In this document: positions 11,547 to 21,248 of the stretch, piece after piece | Numbering within the stretch: the stretch's first letter is position 1 | Layout: every line of letters begins with the position of its first letter | Assembly (NCBI GenBank): GCA_913062675.1 | Contig: CAJXWR010000012.1 | Span: 1-38,710, forward strand | DNA: 38,710 nt | From: an uncultured Trueperaceae bacterium | Lineage (GTDB): Bacteria > Deinococcota > Deinococci > Deinococcales > Trueperaceae | Direction of reading: 5' to 3' | Notes under the pieces: generated by a model | The model's database searches: none | What the model was told of the DNA's origin: nothing | What the model saw: the letters and a program-made list of their open reading frames with translations, nothing else | Translations under genes and position numbers: made by a program

Positions 11547-11645
11547 GGTACGAACGTCCCACCCGTCGGCGGGCGCTGACCGCGTGCAAACGAAAGGCTC
11601 GTCGAGCGGCACAAATGTCCCTCCAGCACGGGGGACGTGCGTCCC
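11547..11645. promoter_or_regulatory. Three copies of a 14-bp palindromic operator between peroxidase and hydrogenase genes
   Basis: The 456-base gap 11367-11822 holds no credible gene. It contains GGTACGAACGTCCC (11547-11560), GGCACAAATGTCCC (11608-11621) and GGGACGTGCGTCCC (11632-11645). The consensus is GGNACNNNNGTCCC. The last is a perfect 6-2-6 inverted repeat and the other two have one arm mismatch each. Centres are 61 and 24 bases apart. The outer copies lie 23 bases from oppositely oriented TANNNT hexamers (11518-11523 and 11669-11674). The cognate regulator is not recognised, and the sites do not look like FNR/CRP boxes. Confidence 0.6.
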
Positions 11646-11668
11646 ATCACGCTCCGTGGCCACCCTGC

Positions 11669-11674
11669 TACGTT
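11669..11674 (+). promoter_or_regulatory. Candidate -10 of the hydrogenase operon promoter
   Basis: TACGTT lies exactly 23 bases after the palindrome at 11632-11645, mirroring the arrangement on the peroxidase side. The would-be -35 (ATCACG) is poor. A start near 11681 would give a 5' leader of about 140 bases before the hydrogenase small subunit. Confidence 0.4.
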
Positions 11675-11822
11675 CGCCCCATCACGCGGGATCGATGGCA
11701 CGCATCCGACGCCCATGACGGCTCGGACGGAGCCACCGCGAACCGTGAAACCGGATCGGGGAGCGACCCGATTCACCCAGCGGTACTTCGGGGGAGGTAT
11801 CGACACGCGCGAGGAGGAGCGC

Positions 11823-13070
11823 ATGACGGTAGCACCCAGGCAACACGGCTTAGGCGCGAACCACGACCTGGATCTCCGGACCCAGGAGCATTACGAGTGG
11901 CTCGCCGCGGAAGCCGACAAGAATCTCGACCGGCTCGAAGCGCAAGACCCGGTCAATGACACCACCCTTGACGAGGTCTTGAAGCGACGCGGCATCTCGC
12001 GTCGTGACTTCCTCAAGATGTCGGCCGTCATGACCGCCACGCTCGGCCTTCCCCCCATGTTCGACCTGCGGGTTGCACGTGCTCAGGAGGTCGCCACCCG
12101 CATCCCCGTCATTTGGCAGGAGCTGCAGTCCTGCAGTGGGAACAGCATGGCGCTCATCCGCAACGCCAACCCGGGAACGGATGAACTGCTGCTCGACCTG
12201 ATCAGCCTGGAGTACGCCGAGATCCTCATGGCGCCCTCCGGCCAGGCGGCCGAAGACGTGCTCGCCGCGTCGATCGAGAAGTACGACGGCGCCTACATCG
12301 CCGTGTTCGAAGGCTCGGTCCCCGTGGGCGACGACGGCAACTTCCTCACCATCGGCCCGGCCGGTGAAACCGGTGTGGAAAAGGTGGAGCACATCGCCAA
12401 GCACGCCGCCGCCGTCATCGCGGCCGGCAGCTGCTCGGCGTACGGCGGGATTCCTGCCGCACGCCCCAACCCCACGACCGCCATGGGCGTCGGCGATTTC
12501 CTCGCCAGCCGCGGCATCAGCAAGCCGGTCGTGAACCTTCCCGCCTGCCCCGTCTCCTCGACCAACGTCGTGGGCACGATCCTCGAGTACGCCATGTTCG
12601 GTCGCCTTCCCTCGCTCGATGCGTACGGCCGTCCGCTCTGGGCGTACCAGGACCGCATCCACGACAAGTGTGAACGCCGCGGGCACTTCGACGCCGGCGA
12701 ATTCGTCGAAGGCTGGACCGACATCGAAGGCCTCAAAGAGGGCCTGTGCCTCTTCAAGGTCGGCTGCAAGGGCCCCATGGCCTACAACAACTGCGGTGTC
12801 GTCCGGTACAACGAAGGTGCCTCCTGGCCCATCATGAGTGGTCACGGCTGCATCGGATGCAGTGAACCCGGTTTCTGGGACACGCTCACCCCCTTCGAAG
12901 TACCGCTTGCCGGTCGCCTCTACAGCACCCCGTTCGGTACCGACGCGAACGCCGACACGATCGGAACGGCCGTTCTCGGAGCCGCTGCCGCCGGTGTGGC
13001 GATTCACGCGGGCGCAACCGCCATCAAGGCCGCAACCGAAAAGCGGTACGAAGGTCAAGAGAAGGAGTAG
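11823..13070 (+). CDS. hyaA: Uptake [NiFe] hydrogenase small subunit, Tat-exported, membrane-anchored
   Basis: A 415-residue electron-transfer subunit of a membrane-bound H2-oxidising hydrogenase. A 57-residue polar leader precedes a twin-arginine signal (SRRDFLKM at 59-66, then a hydrophobic core), so the folded pair is exported. Distal cluster ligands are H280, C283, C309 and C315; medial ligands are C324, C343 and C346. At the proximal cluster C104, C204 and C242 are present. The position that is usually the second cysteine of the first motif is Asn107 (CSGN). G209 sits where oxygen-tolerant six-cysteine enzymes have an extra cysteine, so it is not of that type. Residues about 380-402 form a C-terminal membrane anchor. 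The ATG is preceded by GAGGAGGAGCGC. It is the first gene of the operon. Confidence 0.94.
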   Translation: MTVAPRQHGLGANHDLDLRTQEHYEWLAAEADKNLDRLEAQDPVNDTTLDEVLKRRGISRRDFLKMSAVMTATLGLPPMFDLRVARAQEVATRIPVIWQELQSCSGNSMALIRNANPGTDELLLDLISLEYAEILMAPSGQAAEDVLAASIEKYDGAYIAVFEGSVPVGDDGNFLTIGPAGETGVEKVEHIAKHAAAVIAAGSCSAYGGIPAARPNPTTAMGVGDFLASRGISKPVVNLPACPVSSTNVVGTILEYAMFGRLPSLDAYGRPLWAYQDRIHDKCERRGHFDAGEFVEGWTDIEGLKEGLCLFKVGCKGPMAYNNCGVVRYNEGASWPIMSGHGCIGCSEPGFWDTLTPFEVPLAGRLYSTPFGTDANADTIGTAVLGAAAAGVAIHAGATAIKAATEKRYEGQEKE

Positions 13071-13076
13071 TGCATC

Positions 13077-14771
13077 GTGGCCGCGAAACACGTCATTGAC
13101 CCCATTACCCGCATCGAAGGGCACCTCCGCATCGAGATCGAGGTGGATGACACCACCAACATCGTGCAGGAGGCGTCGAGCAGCTCCACCGCGTTCCGTG
13201 GGTTTGAGAACATCATGCGCGGACGCGATCCCAAGGACGTCGGGATGTTCGCGCAACGCATTTGCGGTGTCTGCACCTTCCACCACTACGAGCGCGGCGT
13301 CGAAGCCACCGAAATGGCGTACGGCGTCACCATCCCGCCGAATGCCCGCTCGCTACGCAACCTGATTTGGGCTGCGCAGGCCGTCAACGACCACAGCACG
13401 CACTTCTACCAACTCCACGCGATGGACTGGTTCGACGTGGTCAGCGCCCTCGATGCCGACCCGGTCGCCGCAACCGAGATTGCGCACCAGTTCCACGCCA
13501 CGCCGTACAACGCCAGCGAATCGCACTACACGATGGTCGCGCAGCGACTCCTCGCCTTCGTGCAATCCGGTCAACTCGGGCCGTTCGCCGGTGGCTACTG
13601 GGGTCACCCCAAGTACCGCTTGAGCCCCGAAGAGAACCTGATCATCGCGAGTCACTACCTCGACAACCTCGCCGTGCAGCGCATGAGCGCCAAGGCCAGC
13701 GCCATCTTCGGCGGTAAGAACCCCCACCCGCAAAGCATGATCGTGGGCGGCATGACGTCGGCGCGCGACGGTCTCGATGCGCACCGCATCGCCGAGTACC
13801 AGTTCCTCATGCAGAAGTCGATGGACTTCGTCGAGCGCGCGTACCTGCCCGACCTCGAGATGATCGGTCGTCGTTACCAGACCGAAGCGCTCGCAGGCGA
13901 AGGTGGCGGTCTGCGCAACTACATGTCGTTCGGCGCGATGGCGCTCGACGAGCAGCCGTGGGAGCGCCGCGCGCACCTGCTGCCCGCCGGCCTCATCATC
14001 GATCGCGACATGAGCACCGTGCATTCCGTCGATCCCATGAAGATTGCCGAAGAGGTTTCGCACTCCTGGTACACGTACGAAGGCGGCAGCGACTCGCTGC
14101 ACCCGCTCGACGGTCAGACCAACCCGAACTACGAGGGCCTGAACGCCGATGGAACGCTCAAGACCGAAGGTGGCTACAGCTGGATCAAGGCGCCCCGATA
14201 CGACGGCATGCCCGTCGAGGTGGGACCCCTGGCCCGCATGTTGATCGCCTACGCGGCAGGGGACGAAGCCGTCCAGCAAGTCATGGACGATTTCACGACC
14301 AAGATCAACGTGCCGTTCGAGTTCTGGTACTCCACGGTCGGTCGCACCATCGCGCGTGGCCTCGAAACGAAGGTCATTGGCGATGCGATTCCCGGTCTGA
14401 TCGGCAAGCTCACGAACAACGTCAAGAGTGGTGATGACCGCTTCTACAACCAGTTCGAGGTCAAGGACGGCCCCGGCTGGGCGATGGGTGAAGCACCCCG
14501 CGGCGCGTTGAGCCACTGGCTCACCGTCGAGAATGGCTCGGTTGCGAACTACCAGGCCATCGTTCCCTCCACGTGGAACGCCAGCCCGAAGGATGGGCGC
14601 GAACAGCGCGGCGCGTACGAAGCCGCGCTCGTGACGCAACCCATGGTCGATCCGACCCGTCCGCTCGAGGTCGTGCGCACCGTGCACTCCTTCGATCCTT
14701 GTCTCGCCTGCGCGGTTCACATCCTGAACCGGGACGGCGAGGAGATCGCAAGCTTCGAAGTGGAGGTGTGA
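13077..14771 (+). CDS. hyaB: Uptake [NiFe] hydrogenase large (catalytic) subunit
   Basis: The 564-residue precursor of the catalytic subunit, which splits H2 at a Ni-Fe(CN)2CO centre outside the cytoplasm. The N-terminal nickel motif is RICGVCTFHH with C63 and C66, plus H70. The C-terminal motif is DPCLACAVH with C542 and C545. Cleavage after H548 by the maturation protease removes the last 16 residues (ILNRDG onward), so the gene encodes the uncleaved form. It carries no signal and is exported with the small subunit. The GTG start six bases after the previous stop has AGAAGGAG about ten bases upstream and begins AAKHVIDPITRIEGH, the standard opening. Sequence alone places it in group 1; I cannot assign a subgroup by eye. 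Confidence 0.96.
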   Translation: MAAKHVIDPITRIEGHLRIEIEVDDTTNIVQEASSSSTAFRGFENIMRGRDPKDVGMFAQRICGVCTFHHYERGVEATEMAYGVTIPPNARSLRNLIWAAQAVNDHSTHFYQLHAMDWFDVVSALDADPVAATEIAHQFHATPYNASESHYTMVAQRLLAFVQSGQLGPFAGGYWGHPKYRLSPEENLIIASHYLDNLAVQRMSAKASAIFGGKNPHPQSMIVGGMTSARDGLDAHRIAEYQFLMQKSMDFVERAYLPDLEMIGRRYQTEALAGEGGGLRNYMSFGAMALDEQPWERRAHLLPAGLIIDRDMSTVHSVDPMKIAEEVSHSWYTYEGGSDSLHPLDGQTNPNYEGLNADGTLKTEGGYSWIKAPRYDGMPVEVGPLARMLIAYAAGDEAVQQVMDDFTTKINVPFEFWYSTVGRTIARGLETKVIGDAIPGLIGKLTNNVKSGDDRFYNQFEVKDGPGWAMGEAPRGALSHWLTVENGSVANYQAIVPSTWNASPKDGREQRGAYEAALVTQPMVDPTRPLEVVRTVHSFDPCLACAVHILNRDGEEIASFEVEV

Positions 14772-14775
14772 TTCC

Positions 14776-15597
14776 GTGACGACCGACACGACCCGCATGC
14801 GCCGCACGCCCGTGAAGAGTGCGGTCGTGCTGGAGCGGGAAGGCCGCCCCAAGATGGTGGTGTACGTCTTCGGAGCGTTCGTTCGGGCATCGCACTGGAT
14901 TCGCAACGCGTTGCTGATCTGGCTCGTGCTGTCCGGAATCTACATCGCCAACCCGTTCCTCGCCCGCGTGATTGGCAGTGACACGTCGAGCAACTTCATC
15001 CTCGCGCAGGTGCGCGGATGGCACGTGGCCGCCGGATGGCTCCTGCTCGCGTTCACGCTTGGGCGCATCTACCAGTTCCTGTTCATCAACCGGGAAGGCA
15101 AGTTGGGTCTCGGGGCAGAACTCCGCATGGCGCCCATCCTGTTCGATCTCAAGGCCTGGCGCGACCAGCTGAAGTTCTACCTGCTGATGAGCAAGGAGCA
15201 CCCGCACCTCACCTACAGCAACTACGGCCCGCTGCAGTACCTCGTGTACACGGCCCTCTACGCCGCGTTGCTGATCATCTCCGTCACCGGAATTCTGCTG
15301 GCCGCGCCGTACCTGTCGAGCGGTATCGCGGTGTGGAGCGCCGAGCTTCTGAGGCCCATCGAAGTGGCCGTGGGTGGTCTCGCGAACGTGCGGATGCTGC
15401 ACCACGTCACCATGTGGTTCTTCATCCTCTTCACGCTCGTGCACATCTACATGGCCGTCTGGAACAGCATGCGGACGGGCAACCTGCTCGTCGAAGGCAT
15501 CATTTCCGGGTTCGCAGCCAAGGACATGCCCGGTGCGCGTGAAGCGACGCCGGAAGATCTCGACAAGCCCGCCGCGAAGGCGGAGAAGGAAGGCTAA
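14776..15597 (+). CDS. hyaC: Ni/Fe-hydrogenase b-type cytochrome subunit
   Basis: A 273-residue integral membrane di-heme cytochrome b that takes electrons from the hydrogenase and gives them to the quinone pool. Four membrane helices are visible. The likely heme-ligand histidines are in ASHWIRNALL, RGWHVAAGW and MLHHVTMWFFILFTLVHIY, as in HyaC/HupC proteins. The GTG start at 14776 has GGAGG in the end of hyaB about nine bases upstream. A later ATG (codon 8) is possible but less well placed. It is followed three bases later by the maturation protease gene. Its presence shows that this hydrogenase feeds the respiratory chain rather than NAD. Confidence 0.93.
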   Translation: MTTDTTRMRRTPVKSAVVLEREGRPKMVVYVFGAFVRASHWIRNALLIWLVLSGIYIANPFLARVIGSDTSSNFILAQVRGWHVAAGWLLLAFTLGRIYQFLFINREGKLGLGAELRMAPILFDLKAWRDQLKFYLLMSKEHPHLTYSNYGPLQYLVYTALYAALLIISVTGILLAAPYLSSGIAVWSAELLRPIEVAVGGLANVRMLHHVTMWFFILFTLVHIYMAVWNSMRTGNLLVEGIISGFAAKDMPGAREATPEDLDKPAAKAEKEG

Positions 15598-15600
15598 ACC

Positions 15601-16185
15601 ATGACCGATGCACGCTCACTCCTGATTCTCGGCGTCGGCAACATGTACTACGGCGACGAAGGTGCGGGCGTGCATCTCATGCACTTCCTGCGCAACAAGT
15701 ACGCATTTCCCGAGCACGTCGACGTGGTCGATGGCGGCACGCTCGGTTGGCACCTGCTCAACCTGATTGCCGAGTATGACCACGTGCTCCTCGTCGACGC
15801 CGTGTGCGCCCCCCCTGGGAAGGTGTACCGGTTTGGACGCGGCCAGATTCCGTCCGAGATCGGGTACGGGAAACTCTCCTCGCACGAGTGGGAAGTCCCC
15901 GACCTGCTGACCGCCATGGATTTGCATGGCGACCTGCCGGACGTCACGATCGCTGCGATTGGCGTAACGCCACTCGAGTTCGAAACGGGGGAGGTGGGCG
16001 TCATCCTGTCCGATACGATTCGTGAGCGGATGGACGCGCTCGCCACCGTCGTGCTGCGTGAGCTCGAAGCCCACGACGTGCATCCCGTCGAGATCGATCC
16101 CGACCTGCGGGCGGGGGACGTGTTCAGCGCGGAGGACATCGTGTTCGGCGCGTTCGAAGCGCAGAAGAAACTGCAGCATGCATGA
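15601..16185 (+). CDS. hyaD: Hydrogenase maturation endopeptidase (HyaD/HupD type)
   Basis: A 194-residue cytoplasmic protease that checks nickel insertion and then trims the C-terminal tail of the large subunit. The family opening is present (LILGVGNMYYGDEGAGV), with metal-recognition residues E20, D45 (VVDGG) and H96 (LSSHEWEVPDLL) at the spacing known from HybD. The ATG follows GAAGGAAGG. The gene ends inside the start of hypA, an eight-base overlap that indicates coupled translation. The tail is somewhat longer than in HybD (about 160 residues); the extra residues are acidic and carry no motif I know. Confidence 0.94.
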   Translation: MTDARSLLILGVGNMYYGDEGAGVHLMHFLRNKYAFPEHVDVVDGGTLGWHLLNLIAEYDHVLLVDAVCAPPGKVYRFGRGQIPSEIGYGKLSSHEWEVPDLLTAMDLHGDLPDVTIAAIGVTPLEFETGEVGVILSDTIRERMDALATVVLRELEAHDVHPVEIDPDLRAGDVFSAEDIVFGAFEAQKKLQHA

Positions 16186-16525
16186 GTTCTCCATCGTGAT
16201 GAGCATGCTCGACCTGGCCGAGGCGTCCGCCCGCGAGGAGGGCGCCTCCCGGATCGAGGCGATTCACTTGGAGATTGGTGCGCTTGCGGGCGTCGTGCCC
16301 GAAGCGCTGGAGTTCGCCTTTCAGGGCGCGCGGGAGGGCACCATGGCGTCCGCCGCGCGGCTCGAGGTTGATTACCTGCCCGCCGTCGCACGCTGCAACA
16401 CGTGCGACGCATCGTTCGAACTCGACAACCGCTGGGGGGTCGCCTTGTGCCCCACCTGCGGAACACCGTCTGCGCAGTTGCTGCAAGGCAAGGAGATGCA
16501 ACTCGCCCGTTTAGAGGTGGCTTGA
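16178..16525 (+). CDS. hypA: Hydrogenase nickel-insertion protein HypA
   Basis: A 115-residue nickel metallochaperone. It begins MHEFSIV, giving the N-terminal Met-His-Glu nickel site. It has a zinc site of two CxxC pairs (CNTC and CPTC) about 25 residues apart. It hands nickel to the large subunit together with HypB. The ATG at 16178 overlaps hyaD by eight bases; a second ATG at 16182 is out of frame. Length and motifs are standard. Confidence 0.96.
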   Translation: MHEFSIVMSMLDLAEASAREEGASRIEAIHLEIGALAGVVPEALEFAFQGAREGTMASAARLEVDYLPAVARCNTCDASFELDNRWGVALCPTCGTPSAQLLQGKEMQLARLEVA

Positions 16526-16542: not shown

Positions 16543-17289
16543 ATGGCCACGCACGATTCGACACGCGACATCAATCTTCATTCGCACGGCGGCGTGGACG
16601 GTAGTACGGACGTCCGTACCGTGCAGGTGCAGAAATCTCTCATGACGCACAATGACGGGGTGGCGGCCGAGAACCGTATGCGGTTCGGGTCGCGTCTCGT
16701 CCTCAATATCGTTAGTTCGCCCGGTTCGGGCAAGACGGCGTTGATGGAGCGGACGGTTCGCGAACTCGCGAACGATCTGCAGGTCGGCGTCGTCGTCGGA
16801 GACCTAGAGACCGACAATGATGCCGTCCGCATTCACGATGCAGGCGCCCCCTCCGTGCAGATCGTGACGGGGGCGGTGTGCCACCTCGAGGCGGAGATGG
16901 TGGCGCGCGCCGTCGACAACCTCGACGTCGAGGGTCTCGACGTGGTGGTCATCGAGAACGTTGGAAACCTCGTGTGTCCTGCCGCGTGGGACCTCGGGGA
17001 GGATCTGCGCGTCACGATGCTCAGCGTGACGGAGGGGGAGGACAAGCCCCTGAAGTACCCGCGGATCTTCAAGGATGCGCATGCGGTGATCGTGAACAAG
17101 ATCGACATTGCCGAGGTGGTGGGTTTCGATCGAGCCAAGGCGCTGGATTCCATCGCCAAGGTTGCGCCGGCCGCCACGGTGTTCGAAGTGTCCGCCAAGA
17201 CGGGGGAGGGAATGGCCGACTGGCTCGACTGGTTGCGCGCCCGGCGCGTCGAGAAGGTGGAACGGTTGTCCAAGGTGACGGTTGGGTGA
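16543..17289 (+). CDS. hypB: Hydrogenase nickel incorporation GTPase HypB
   Basis: A 248-residue GTPase that drives nickel delivery. The P-loop SPGSGKT is at 59-65 and VNKID is the guanine-specificity motif. The metal site at the dimer interface has C113-H114 (VCHLEAEM) and C145 (GNLVCPA). The N-terminus lacks the CxxCGC high-affinity nickel site of the E. coli protein and has only a short H-x-H (NLHSHGG), so nickel storage at the N-terminus is reduced or absent. The ATG has GGGAGG nine bases upstream. Downstream an 80-base gap, the longest in the operon, holds a candidate internal promoter. Confidence 0.96.
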   Translation: MATHDSTRDINLHSHGGVDGSTDVRTVQVQKSLMTHNDGVAAENRMRFGSRLVLNIVSSPGSGKTALMERTVRELANDLQVGVVVGDLETDNDAVRIHDAGAPSVQIVTGAVCHLEAEMVARAVDNLDVEGLDVVVIENVGNLVCPAAWDLGEDLRVTMLSVTEGEDKPLKYPRIFKDAHAVIVNKIDIAEVVGFDRAKALDSIAKVAPAATVFEVSAKTGEGMADWLDWLRARRVEKVERLSKVTVG

Positions 17290-17369: not shown

Positions 17370-17600
17370 ATGTGCCTAGGAATCCCACATGAAGTCGTCG
17401 ACGTCATGGACGCCGATACCTGCCTCATTAAGGTGGGCGACCGCTCACAACACTGCTTCATCGGTCTGGTCGAAGACCTCAAGGCTGGCGATTGGGTCGT
17501 CGTCCACGCGGGCTTCGCGATCGACAAGATTGCGCCTGAAGACGCGAAAGCCAACTTGAAGCTCATCCAGACGTACCTCGAGCCGGAAACGCGAGCCTGA
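17370..17600 (+). CDS. hypC: Hydrogenase assembly chaperone HypC
   Basis: A 76-residue chaperone. It begins MCLGIP, exposing C2, which with HypD carries the Fe(CN)2CO unit and then binds the unprocessed large subunit. The rest (FIGLVEDLKAGDWVVVHAGFAIDKI) is the normal small beta-barrel. The ATG is preceded by GAGAGGGGAG. HypD begins eight bases downstream. Confidence 0.97.
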   Translation: MCLGIPHEVVDVMDADTCLIKVGDRSQHCFIGLVEDLKAGDWVVVHAGFAIDKIAPEDAKANLKLIQTYLEPETRA

Positions 17601-17607
17601 GGTCATC

Positions 17608-18792
17608 ATGAGTGAGGCTGCCACCCCCACGTTCGATTTCGACCCCCACATCTACAAGGATGCCGATGTCGTCAAGGGTTTGCAGGAAAAGTTGGCGACC
17701 CTGGCTGATGAGATTGGCCGCCCCGTCAAACTGATGCACATTTGCGGGACGCATGAGCACGAGATGGGCCGCTTCGCCCTTCGGGATTTGATTCCCGAAA
17801 GCGTGGAGGTTCTCGCGGGCCCCGGCTGTCCCGTCTGCGTGTGCGACAACGAGTACATCAACATGGCGATTCAGTTGTCGCTCCTCGACGACGTGATCGT
17901 CACGAGTTTCGGCGACATGCTCGCCGTGCCCGGCAGCATTCCCCTCGAGGGAGAACGCCGCGGTGACGTACGCATGAGTCTTCTCGATGCCCGAGCGCAG
18001 GGAGGCGACGTGCGCGCCGTGTACAGCGCGTTCGACGCCGCGCAAATCGCGCGCGACAATCCCGACAAGGAAGTCGTGTTCTTCAGTGTCGGCTTCGAGA
18101 CGACCGTGGTCGCCGTCGCCGCCATGCTGAAACGCGGTGCGCCGGACAACTTGAGCATCATCGAGGCGAACTACTACACGCCACCTGCGACGCACTTGCT
18201 GCCTGAACTCGACGGTTTCGACATCGAGGGCTTCATCCTTCCCGGGCACGCGGTCACCATCACGGGCCTGCGGGTCTACGAACATCTCGCCGAGCAGGGC
18301 ATCGCCTGTGCCTCGGGCGGGTTCGAACCGGTGGACGTCCTTGCGTCGATCGCTTCGCTGCTCGAGCAGTTGCGTGACGACAAGGCCATCATCGACAACC
18401 CGTACAGCCGGCTCGTGAAGTACGACGGGAACGAGAAGGCGCGAAGCGAACTGCACGAAGTCTTCGAACTCGGCCCCATCCGCTGGCGCGGCATTGCCGA
18501 GATTCCCGAGTCGGGCTACAAGCTGCGACCCGAGTACCAGAAGTACAGCGCCGCGAGGAAGTTTGCCGGTCGGCTTGACCAGCGCGCGCTCGCGGGCGCG
18601 GAGCATCCGAAGGGATGCCGTTGCGCCGAGGTGACGCTGGGCCAAATTCGACCCGACGAGTGCGGCGTGTTCGGCAAGCTATGCACCCCCGACGCTCCGT
18701 ACGGCCCTTGCATGGTGAGTCACGAGGGCACCTGCCGGGCTTGGTACCTCTATGGCATGCACAAGGAGAAATTGAATGTCGAAGTCGCCTGA
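17608..18792 (+). CDS. hypD: Hydrogenase formation protein HypD
   Basis: A 394-residue iron-sulfur scaffold on which the Fe(CN)2CO moiety is built with HypC. Conserved segments are all present: HICGTHEHEMGR, GPGCPVCVC, VGFETT, GFEPVDVL, and the C-terminal cluster region with GCRCAEV, DECGVFGKLC and GTCRAW. The length is typical. The first ~20 residues are poorly conserved. Its end overlaps hypE by 17 bases. Confidence 0.97.
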   Translation: MSEAATPTFDFDPHIYKDADVVKGLQEKLATLADEIGRPVKLMHICGTHEHEMGRFALRDLIPESVEVLAGPGCPVCVCDNEYINMAIQLSLLDDVIVTSFGDMLAVPGSIPLEGERRGDVRMSLLDARAQGGDVRAVYSAFDAAQIARDNPDKEVVFFSVGFETTVVAVAAMLKRGAPDNLSIIEANYYTPPATHLLPELDGFDIEGFILPGHAVTITGLRVYEHLAEQGIACASGGFEPVDVLASIASLLEQLRDDKAIIDNPYSRLVKYDGNEKARSELHEVFELGPIRWRGIAEIPESGYKLRPEYQKYSAARKFAGRLDQRALAGAEHPKGCRCAEVTLGQIRPDECGVFGKLCTPDAPYGPCMVSHEGTCRAWYLYGMHKEKLNVEVA

Positions 18793-19852
18793 GGGGGACA
18801 CCCCCGTAGCCGAGTCGACCTCCACCCGCTCGAGCGCCGTGTCGCGCTATGCCAGCGTTCGTCTTGCGCACGGGTCGGGAGGCAAGCTCAGTCTCGAACT
18901 CATTCAAGACTTGTTCGTCAGCACGTTTGGCGGCAACGAACTCGCCGAGCTGACCGATGCGGCGGTCGTCGCGAACCCGGGTGGACGCGTCGCGTTCTGC
19001 ACCGATTCGCACACCGTCACCCCGACGTTCTTCCCTGGCGGGGACATTGGTCGACTGGCCGTGGCCGGAACGGTGAACGACCTCGCCGTCATGGGCGCAA
19101 AACCGACCTACCTGACGGCCGCCTTCCTCATCGAGGAGGGGTACGACATGGACGAGCTCGAACGCGTCGTGCGCTCCATGAAGGCGACCGCCGACGAGGC
19201 GGGCGTCGCAATCGTTGCGGGCGACACGAAGGTGCTCGAGCGCGGCAAGGGCGACGGCCTGTTCATCAACACGGCGGGCGTCGGATTCATCCCCGACGGG
19301 GTGGATCTCGGTCCGTCCCGCATCGAGGCGGGCGACAAGATTCTCGTGAACGGCACGCTCGGTGATCACGGCATCGCCGTCATGTCCCGCCGGGAGGGTC
19401 TCGCCATGGGTGCGAGCCTCGAGTCGGACGTCGCGCCCCTCAATGGCCTCATCGAACAGGTGATGGCGGTCGCACCGAACGTCCGCTTCATGCGTGACGT
19501 GACGCGTGGCGGTCTCGCCGCCGTGGGCAACGAGGTCGTGCTGAACCAGGCTTGGGGCCTGCGCATCTTCGACGTGGCCGTCCCGATTCACGACATCGTC
19601 GAGGAGTACAGCGAAATGCTGGGGATCGACCCGCTCCTCGCCGCCAACGAAGGCAAGGTGCTCATGGTGGTGCCCGACGACGAGTCGGAAGCCGCCCTGG
19701 GTGCCATGAAGGCCCATCCCTTGGGCCGTGAAGCCGCCATCATCGGGGACATCGTCAAGAAGCCCGAGGGTGTGGCCCTGGTCGAAACGGCGTACGGAAG
19801 TCGGCGTGTGCTGGAAATGCCGATCGAAGAGCAGCTTCCAAGGATTTGCTGA
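18776..19852 (+). CDS. hypE: Hydrogenase expression/formation protein HypE
   Basis: A 358-residue PurM-like ATPase that dehydrates a carbamoyl group on its C-terminal cysteine to make the cyanide ligands. The conserved C-terminal PRIC tail is intact (C358). AHGSGGK, TDSHTVTPTFFPGGDIG and TRGGLAAVGNE are the usual ATP-site segments. The ATG lies inside the end of hypD, preceded by AAGGAG. HypE needs HypF to supply the carbamoyl group, and no hypF is present in this window. The stop overlaps the next ATG. Confidence 0.97.
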   Translation: MSKSPEGDTPVAESTSTRSSAVSRYASVRLAHGSGGKLSLELIQDLFVSTFGGNELAELTDAAVVANPGGRVAFCTDSHTVTPTFFPGGDIGRLAVAGTVNDLAVMGAKPTYLTAAFLIEEGYDMDELERVVRSMKATADEAGVAIVAGDTKVLERGKGDGLFINTAGVGFIPDGVDLGPSRIEAGDKILVNGTLGDHGIAVMSRREGLAMGASLESDVAPLNGLIEQVMAVAPNVRFMRDVTRGGLAAVGNEVVLNQAWGLRIFDVAVPIHDIVEEYSEMLGIDPLLAANEGKVLMVVPDDESEAALGAMKAHPLGREAAIIGDIVKKPEGVALVETAYGSRRVLEMPIEEQLPRIC

Positions 19853-20406
19853 TGATCAAGCGGGAGCGCGCATTCATCGAAGCGGCGGTCGCGGCGGTGG
19901 AGGAAGCCAAGGATCTCGTTCTTCCCGTCTTGATGGTCGAAACGCCGAACGACCCGTGGACGCCGGAGCGAATTCGTTCGCTGCAGGGGCGCCGTGAGGA
20001 GCTTGGTGACTTGATGGCGGATGCCGTGGAGCTCCTCGTTGATCTCGAGGTGCCCTTCCTCGAGGAGGAGGCGCGACTCGCGAATGGTGGTGTCGACCTC
20101 GCATCGGACCTGCAAGGGTTTGAGGTGGCGATGGTGGACTTCGAGCGGGGCTTCTGGGAGGCGCGGTTCGCGGAGTACCAGGCGAACCCCGAGCGTTGGC
20201 CGCTGCGTGAGGTGGAGCACTTCGACGTGTGTGAGGACCACCAGTTGAGCAGTGCGCGCGTTCGTCAAGCCATCGAGGAGCATGGCATCACGAGTTTCGA
20301 GGATCTTGCGCCGCACCTGGGTACCGACGTGTCGTGCAGTACCTGCCATACGGCTGTGACGAAGATGCTGCTCCACGAGTTGAAGCGCAGCAAGCAAGCG
20401 AATTGA
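19852..20406 (+). CDS. Hydrogenase-operon protein with C-terminal BFD-like cysteine domain (unknown function)
   Basis: A 184-residue cytoplasmic protein with no signal peptide. Residues 1-115 are acidic, mostly helical and unrecognised. The last ~60 residues resemble the bacterioferritin-associated ferredoxin (BFD) [2Fe-2S] fold: FDVCEDHQLSSARVRQAIEE, then ITSFEDLAPHLG, then SCSTCHTAV. It keeps only three of the four usual cysteines (C127, C162 and C165). The second position of the first CxC pair is lost, and D129, H130 or H166 could substitute as a ligand. The ATG overlaps the hypE stop (TGATG) and follows AAGGA. Its stop overlaps the next gene, so it is made together with HypE and the DUF692 enzyme. 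Possible roles are electron donor, iron-sulfur carrier or partner protein of the DUF692 enzyme. All are inference. Confidence 0.8.
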   Translation: MIKRERAFIEAAVAAVEEAKDLVLPVLMVETPNDPWTPERIRSLQGRREELGDLMADAVELLVDLEVPFLEEEARLANGGVDLASDLQGFEVAMVDFERGFWEARFAEYQANPERWPLREVEHFDVCEDHQLSSARVRQAIEEHGITSFEDLAPHLGTDVSCSTCHTAVTKMLLHELKRSKQAN

Positions 20407-21248
20407 CGACGAATCTTCGAGCATGGGAGGGCGACGGGGAACCCGTCGCCCTTGCCGTGAACGACACGCCGGTCTCACGCGCGTTGCACGCGTCGGGTCG
20501 TCTACCCGGCGAGCTTTGGTTGGAGACGAGTGGACCCCTGACGGAGGAAGCGGTCGAGCATTTCGTCGGCCGCCGCATGCTGCTTCACAACGGCGTGTGG
20601 GACTGGTCCCTGGCGCACGACGACGCCCTTTCGCATCTCGATGCCCTGACGGTGACGCGCCGCAGGTTGCGGGCGACGGCTGCACCGTGGCTGAGTGTGC
20701 ACGTGGGGTTCGCCGCGGCGACCGTGGCGTACGAGGAGGGAATGCAGGCAACGTCCCCCGTCCTCGAGCGTGACGTGTTGCTCGAGCGGATGGTGCGGAC
20801 GGTCCGCGCGCTGCAGGAGGCGTTGGACGTTCCGGTCCTGCTCGAGAACCTAGATGACCAGCCATCCCCCGCATACCGTTTCGTGTGCGAGCCGAGCTTC
20901 ATCGATGAACTCGTCTCGAGGACGGGGGCGTTCCTGCTGCTCGACTTGGCGCATGCTCAGGTGAGCGCTGCGCGCCAGGGCGTTGCGGTCGAGGCGTACC
21001 TCGAGGCGTTACCGCTGGACCGGGTCCGGCAGGTTCACGTGAGTGGACCGCGCCGGGGGGAGGGCGGCGTGCTGCTGGATGCGCACGAAACGTTGCGGGA
21101 CGTGGATCTTGCCCTCGTGCAGTCCGTGCTTGAGCGCGGGACGCCGTGGGCGGTGACGCTCGAGTACGGACGTACGGCCGACGCCTTGCTTCGCGACGTC
21201 GCTGCGCTTCGCGAGACGTTGGGAATCTCCGCGTCGAGGTGGACGTAG
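20403..21248 (+). CDS. DUF692 / MNIO-family putative multinuclear iron oxidase
   Basis: About 281 residues forming a TIM-barrel protein of the DUF692 family, whose studied members (MbnB, TglH) use two or three irons and O2 to remodel Cys or other residues in peptides. Landmark segments are LSVHVGF with H100, LLENLDD with E148, FIDELVSRTGAFLLLDLAHAQVSA with D181 and H184, QVHVSG with H212, DAHETL with D226 and H228, and VTLEYGR near the end. The second histidine of the usual HLAGH motif is replaced. The TTG start at 20403 is chosen for coupling (it overlaps the previous stop); a GTG at 20457 is an alternative and also leaves the barrel whole. It closes the hydrogenase operon. No short precursor peptide gene was found nearby, so the target may be another protein of the operon. 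Confidence 0.8.
   Translation: MTTNLRAWEGDGEPVALAVNDTPVSRALHASGRLPGELWLETSGPLTEEAVEHFVGRRMLLHNGVWDWSLAHDDALSHLDALTVTRRRLRATAAPWLSVHVGFAAATVAYEEGMQATSPVLERDVLLERMVRTVRALQEALDVPVLLENLDDQPSPAYRFVCEPSFIDELVSRTGAFLLLDLAHAQVSAARQGVAVEAYLEALPLDRVRQVHVSGPRRGEGGVLLDAHETLRDVDLALVQSVLERGTPWAVTLEYGRTADALLRDVAALRETLGISASRWT

Follow-up and report, generated by a model that had tools for sequence, protein, structure and literature searches.

The window, a stretch of 38,710 nucleotides, comes from a Trueperaceae (Deinococcota) MAG of 2.5 Mb (G000; 90% complete, 196 contigs). On its forward strand, from ~11.6 to 21.2 kb, it carries hyaA, hyaB, a b-type cytochrome gene, hyaD, hypA, hypB, hypC, hypD and hypE, followed by a gene for a BFD-like protein and a gene for a DUF692 enzyme of the MNIO family, the latter two being the last genes of a HyaABCD-HypABCDE operon for a group 1f-type [NiFe]-hydrogenase. 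The features are as follows:

11637–13070, + strand: HyaA-type small subunit, with a Tat signal and the proximal-cluster motif C-S-G-N (Cys to Asn), the group 1f signature
13077–14771, + strand: HyaB-type large subunit (PF00374)
14776–15597, + strand: b-type cytochrome subunit (TIGR02125)
15601–16185, + strand: HyaD/HybD-like maturation endopeptidase
16178–16525, + strand: HypA
16543–17289, + strand: HypB
17370–17600, + strand: HypC (MCLGIPHEV..., read directly; 51–89% identity to homologues of related operons)
17608–18792, + strand: HypD
18776–19852, + strand: HypE, with PRIC intact at the C-terminus
19852–20406, + strand: BFD-like protein of 184 aa, an N-terminal helical domain plus a C-terminal BFD-like domain with CxxH...CxxC
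20230–20241, + strand: C127-E-D-H130, first half of a putative metal site (Cys and His invariant in 13 homologues)
20335–20346, + strand: C162-S-T-C165, second half of the putative metal site (both Cys invariant in 13 homologues)
20403–21248, + strand: DUF692/MNIO, 281 aa from TTG 20403 or 263 aa from GTG 20457, a TIM barrel
20943–20954, + strand: D181-L-A-H184, with His in place of the site-3 Asn ligand (DxxH, not DxxN)

The last two genes thus lie behind hypE where the initial annotation had located them. The hydrogenase is of the group 1f type as assigned by its proximal-cluster motif: residues 166–169 of HyaA read CSGN, and replacement of one proximal-cluster Cys by Asn or Asp (CxxN) is the reported signature of this group, which the window operon shares while also having a b-type cytochrome subunit (PMC5364354). 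CSGN or CTGN is found in all Deinococcota small subunits read, and the same Asn in most of the Chloroflexota ones. The hypF gene of this genome lies outside the operon on a separate contig (C49), and the idea that the MNIO and BFD-like proteins together replace HypF was rejected on that account.

The BFD-like gene begins at a TGATG overlap, in which the hypE stop codon (TGA 19850–19852) runs into the ATG at 19852, and it ends at TGA 20404–20406. The Fer2_BFD profile (PF04324) matches the C-terminal third (~50 residues) of the 184-residue protein at E 2e-5 and 25.2 bits, just missing the cut-off of 26; it matches nine of the 13 homologues at E ≤ 1, the best at 2.5e-8. Compared with bacterioferritin-associated ferredoxin (PF04324; PDB 6e6r, 4e6k), to which this weak match aligns the first Cys and the CxxC, the window protein has CxxH for CxC, an extra helical N-terminal domain of ~115 residues, and a link to hypE. 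The domain had at first been described as incomplete. Because CxxH...CxxC is kept throughout the 13 homologues, with the second Cys of the classical CxC...CxxC replaced in every one of them, it is, as the alignment has it, a consistent variant and not a damaged or broken BFD. Invariant positions in the 13-member alignment include F8, E10, P25, P35, P68, E73, W102, C127, H130, C162 and C165. The structure model is confident (pLDDT 90.5, pTM 0.68), and a Foldseek search with it returned no PDB chain at E ≤ 0.001, the structures of TglI/DUF2063 partners included; the N-terminal helical domain has no fold match in the PDB. Between the sister species G003 and G004, dN/dS is 0.039/0.208 for the BFD-like gene and 0.013/0.235 for hypE.

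The link between this protein and the hydrogenase is supported by its distribution. Homologues, with identities down to 30%, occur in 13 of 111 Deinococcota genomes, and HyaB of the group 1 hydrogenase likewise in 13, twelve genomes being common to both sets (Fisher p 4e-14, uncorrected for the relatedness of the 111 genomes). Among the 12 loci read beyond the window, the BFD-like gene stands directly behind hypE in 11; the twelfth (G084, L062) has it adjoining hypC. The association holds wherever contigs can be read, for both exceptions are MAGs in which the relevant contigs are truncated or absent: in G109, which has HyaB without the BFD-like protein, the contig ends within hypE, and G110, which has the BFD-like protein without HyaB, is 72% complete and has hypCDE adjoining the BFD-like gene. 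The search covered these 111 genomes, 301 sampled Chloroflexota genomes and plasmid records. No homologue was found in the plasmid records or, with a profile that recovers Deinococcota members ~30% identical to the window protein (members that were themselves built into it), in the Chloroflexota genomes. The Deinococcota operons add a BFD-like gene after hypE, an addition absent from the Chloroflexota CxxN operons inspected.

A comparable kind of protein is known from mycobacteria. HucE/HhyE, described as NifU-like with Rieske- or rubredoxin-like C-termini, are encoded in group 2a/1h operons (PMC6883350); the window protein, likened to them by description only, would share with them the character of a putative small metal or Fe-S protein apparently specific to its [NiFe]-hydrogenase, but is BFD-like rather than NifU-like by description and belongs to a group 1f operon. 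Conserved sequence and gene position together speak well for the BFD-like protein as a candidate hydrogenase accessory protein of Deinococcota, probably a genuine one that has not been described before. As a constant and apparently undescribed neighbor of hypE, it is a concrete protein through which to study a lineage-specific step in the maturation of [NiFe]-hydrogenases.

In ten genomes that have the hydrogenase and the BFD-like gene, no MNIO gene follows the latter; what does follow is unrelated sequence or a gene for a radical-SAM or DUF302-like protein. Thermaceae-like operons have, downstream of the BFD-like gene, a gene for a ~135-aa protein (L061 8004–8405, L062 4613–5023) or, at L060 175–1119, a fusion of such a protein to the BFD-like one; the L062 copy matches DUF302 (PF03625), and the other two, without a Pfam match, look alike by eye. 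In the Trueperaceae genus g11 (L055 1674–3005, L057 4384–5338), a coproporphyrinogen oxidase-like radical-SAM protein is encoded near or behind the BFD-like gene.

The second gene of the pair had been assigned to DUF692, and this is borne out: PF05114 matches its product at E 4e-25 and 89 bits against a cut-off of 25, and the window genome encodes no other PF05114 protein. An AlphaFold2 model (pLDDT 89) finds TglH (8hci, E 2.3e-16), MbnB (7dz9, E 8e-13) and 3bww (E 2e-11) by Foldseek. Judged by profile and by modeled fold, the protein is a genuine MNIO. It scores far under the NCBIfam cut-offs of ApyH, BufB, HvfB, ChrH and MbnB, the best match being ApyH at 83 bits with a cut-off of 400.

The iron ligands of VcMbnB are His55, His91, Glu135, Asp165, Asn168, His194, Asp209, His211 and Glu238 (PMC8888699). 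Read from alignments to TglH and 3bww and checked over 39 MNIOs, the corresponding positions of the window enzyme (numbered from TTG 20403) are H62, H100, E148, D181, H184, H212, D226, H228 and E254. All nine positions are filled and eight are identical to VcMbnB, the exception being His184 at the position of N168; these ligands are kept in all three species with an operon MNIO. Set beside TglH, MbnB, HvfB, BufB and ApyH (PF05114), then, the enzyme has the same TIM barrel, with TglH 8hci as its best PDB match, and the nine ligand positions in the same order, but differs in His184 for the site-3 Asn. Between G003 and G004 its dN/dS is 0.096/0.341, a weaker constraint than on the BFD-like gene or hypE but still purifying selection, so at the sequence level the gene appears to behave like a functioning one.

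Where translation of the MNIO begins is less settled than where it ends. The frame is open from TTG 20403, with an alternative start at GTG 20457, to the stop codon TAG at 21248. At the position of window 20457, G004 has GTG and G003 only CTG (L034, around 10137), and the homologous frame of G003 has no ATG, GTG or TTG for a long stretch past that CTG. Because the sister species offer only GTG or CTG at this position, the overlap of the BFD-like and MNIO genes at 20403 is not conserved. A programmed frameshift fusing the two proteins was considered and rejected, the relative frame being −1 in the window and +1 in G003 and G004. No internal promoter or credible terminator was found around the pair; the two terminator-like matches, both within the MNIO gene, are close to what chance would give.

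The distribution of the MNIO is quite different from that of the BFD-like protein. The order hypE-BFD-MNIO occurs only in the window's genus, in three species (G000, G003, G004) whose operon MNIOs have diverged to ~62% identity. MNIOs 48–51% identical to the window's are found in G011 and G024, neither of which has hypD; a match in a Truepera MAG (L002), of the same family as the window genome, is the same as that of G024. Chloroflexota homologues, ~43–45% identical, stand alone beside unrelated genes. Across the 111 genomes MNIOs as a whole show no association with HyaB (p 0.40); in a narrow clade of five genomes three have the hydrogenase (p 0.011), but these are one genus and hence one evolutionary event. 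Plasmid records hold no close MNIO homologue and phage records no MNIO homologue, and a literature search on hydrogenases with DUF692 found nothing relevant. The CxxN proximal motif as the reason for the MNIO was rejected, since that motif occurs without one; it is present in all Deinococcota operons read and in most of the Chloroflexota ones read.

Because ten genomes have the BFD-like gene without an MNIO, and close MNIOs occur without hypD, the data lend no support to a general maturation module of DUF692 and BFD-like proteins, and the two genes are better read as two separate stories. The pair had been proposed as one hydrogenase accessory module, with orthologues expected to lie by hydrogenase genes. 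The BFD-like half of that proposal is supported: the protein tracks HyaB in the co-occurrence survey, adjoins hypE and is always linked to the hydrogenase. The other half, the MNIO as a general hydrogenase factor, is not, for its orthologues lie mostly away from hydrogenase genes and do not follow HyaB. In general, hydrogenase maturation probably does not involve the chemistry of the MNIO.

The main rival to this separation is a recruitment confined to the window's genus, in which the MNIO would oxidize a residue of a hydrogenase-pathway protein (for instance a Cys or Asp in HyaA, HyaB, HypE or the BFD-like protein) for maturation or protection. Consistent with such a role, operon and gene order are the same in three diverged species, and the same-genus genomes without the hydrogenase (G001 and G002, which have neither hypD nor the BFD-like gene) also lack the MNIO. 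Further, MNIO precursor genes usually lie upstream of the MNIO gene and may encode long proteins (PMC12452194); here the gene ahead of the MNIO encodes a protein whose CxxC is invariant. On the other hand, the BFD-like protein, the Hyp proteins and the subunits are conserved without an MNIO in ten other genomes, the BFD cysteine motif of this genus is no different from that of others, and two of the closest enzymes, those of G011 and G024, are in genomes without hypD. We consider genus-specific recruitment an unlikely account of the arrangement.

The adjacency of the two genes might also be explained if the BFD-like protein were the partner of the MNIO, in place of the DUF2063 or RRE partners, as the initial annotation had suggested as one option. 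Type 2 MNIO partners have a helix-rich N-terminal domain (PMC12452194), and so does the BFD-like protein in its model. Yet the model has no fold match to TglI or to any PDB chain at E ≤ 0.001, the BFD-like protein occurs in ten genomes without an MNIO, and homologous MNIOs occur without it. An obligate partnership is accordingly unlikely, and we regard a partner role of any kind as very improbable.

What sets the enzyme apart is the branch to which it belongs. Of the 39 MNIOs, 25 have His at the site-3 position, every close relative of the window enzyme among them, and the tree of the 39 sequences separates these 25 DxxH enzymes from the DxxN ones with 100/100 support. The DxxN side holds the bufferin-linked, TIGR04222-linked and dapC-linked enzymes, among them the dapC-linked Tsukamurella enzyme. 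Work on HvfB found that activity depends on the Asn at the equivalent position and that the enzyme requires its partner HvfC to attain the mixed-valent state (PMC13419390). None of the 15 genomes with DxxH enzymes, G000 included, has a DUF2063 protein (PF09836) above the cut-off, which a highly diverged partner might fail to reach. From this small sample we propose that DxxH enzymes may work without a partner protein. The branch carries His at the disputed third iron site, the role of which could be examined by comparing natural enzymes.

To our knowledge, the characterized MNIOs all act on ribosomal peptides, and the best NCBIfam match, ApyH, far under its cut-off though it is, points the same way. 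A conventional RiPP system with its precursor peptide encoded elsewhere in the genome must then be weighed. As first noted, however, no precursor peptide gene is evident in the window, nor at the related DxxH loci inspected, though a short unannotated precursor acting in trans might escape such inspection; the window genome has no DUF2063 partner above the cut-off; and the 100/100 branch parts the DxxH enzymes from the bufferin and TIGR04222 ones. A RiPP reading is thus likewise unsupported and seems to us a long shot. The window system differs from known MNIO systems on each of these counts, in having neither a DUF2063-type partner nor an evident precursor, and in placing the MNIO last in a hydrogenase operon. 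From its sequences, the DxxH branch would represent a part of a large and much studied family that is seemingly active without either accessory.

The explanation that we favor, and hold to be moderately probable, takes the BFD-like gene as an old hydrogenase accessory gene and the MNIO gene as a later arrival in the operon. The BFD-like protein would assist the group 1f hydrogenase of Deinococcota as a helper particular to that lineage. On a BFD-like fold, its CxxH...CxxC site would bind either a small Fe-S cluster or zinc, while the helical N-terminal domain may dock on a Hyp protein or on the apo-hydrogenase; the most economical idea is that the protein delivers electrons or a cluster in maturation via this 3Cys-1His site. 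The MNIO, as a member of the DxxH branch, would be an oxidase working on its own, activating O2 at a mixed-valent di-iron site by analogy with MbnB and HvfB but without a DUF2063-type partner, on a substrate presumably encoded elsewhere and not beside the gene. Its gene would have settled behind that of the BFD-like protein in the ancestor of a single genus, to be read from the same operon in what is a late arrangement. Against this explanation, the operon position has been kept in three species despite MNIO identity of only ~62%, a point in favor of some advantage from co-expression with the hydrogenase.

A bolder combination would make the DxxH enzymes a partner-free class in which the site-3 His does the partner's job, and would have the enzyme of this genus oxidize a residue of the hydrogenase pathway, in the BFD-like protein or a subunit. 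We consider this combination unlikely; if true, it would give an MNIO acting in enzyme maturation rather than on a peptide natural product.

In Chloroflexota, DxxH MNIO genes stand directly behind aspartate-semialdehyde dehydrogenase genes (L004 8940–10783, L005 3258–6228), which hints at a possible link between the two enzymes, with a 376-aa protein without a Pfam match encoded between the two in L005. In a Chloroflexota MAG (L003 10016–11617) a gene for a CDGSH/Fer4_19 iron-sulfur protein lies just behind the DxxH MNIO gene, and in G040, of the same order, two overlapping tandem DxxH MNIO genes lie beside a respiratory complex I cluster (L039 8610–10356).
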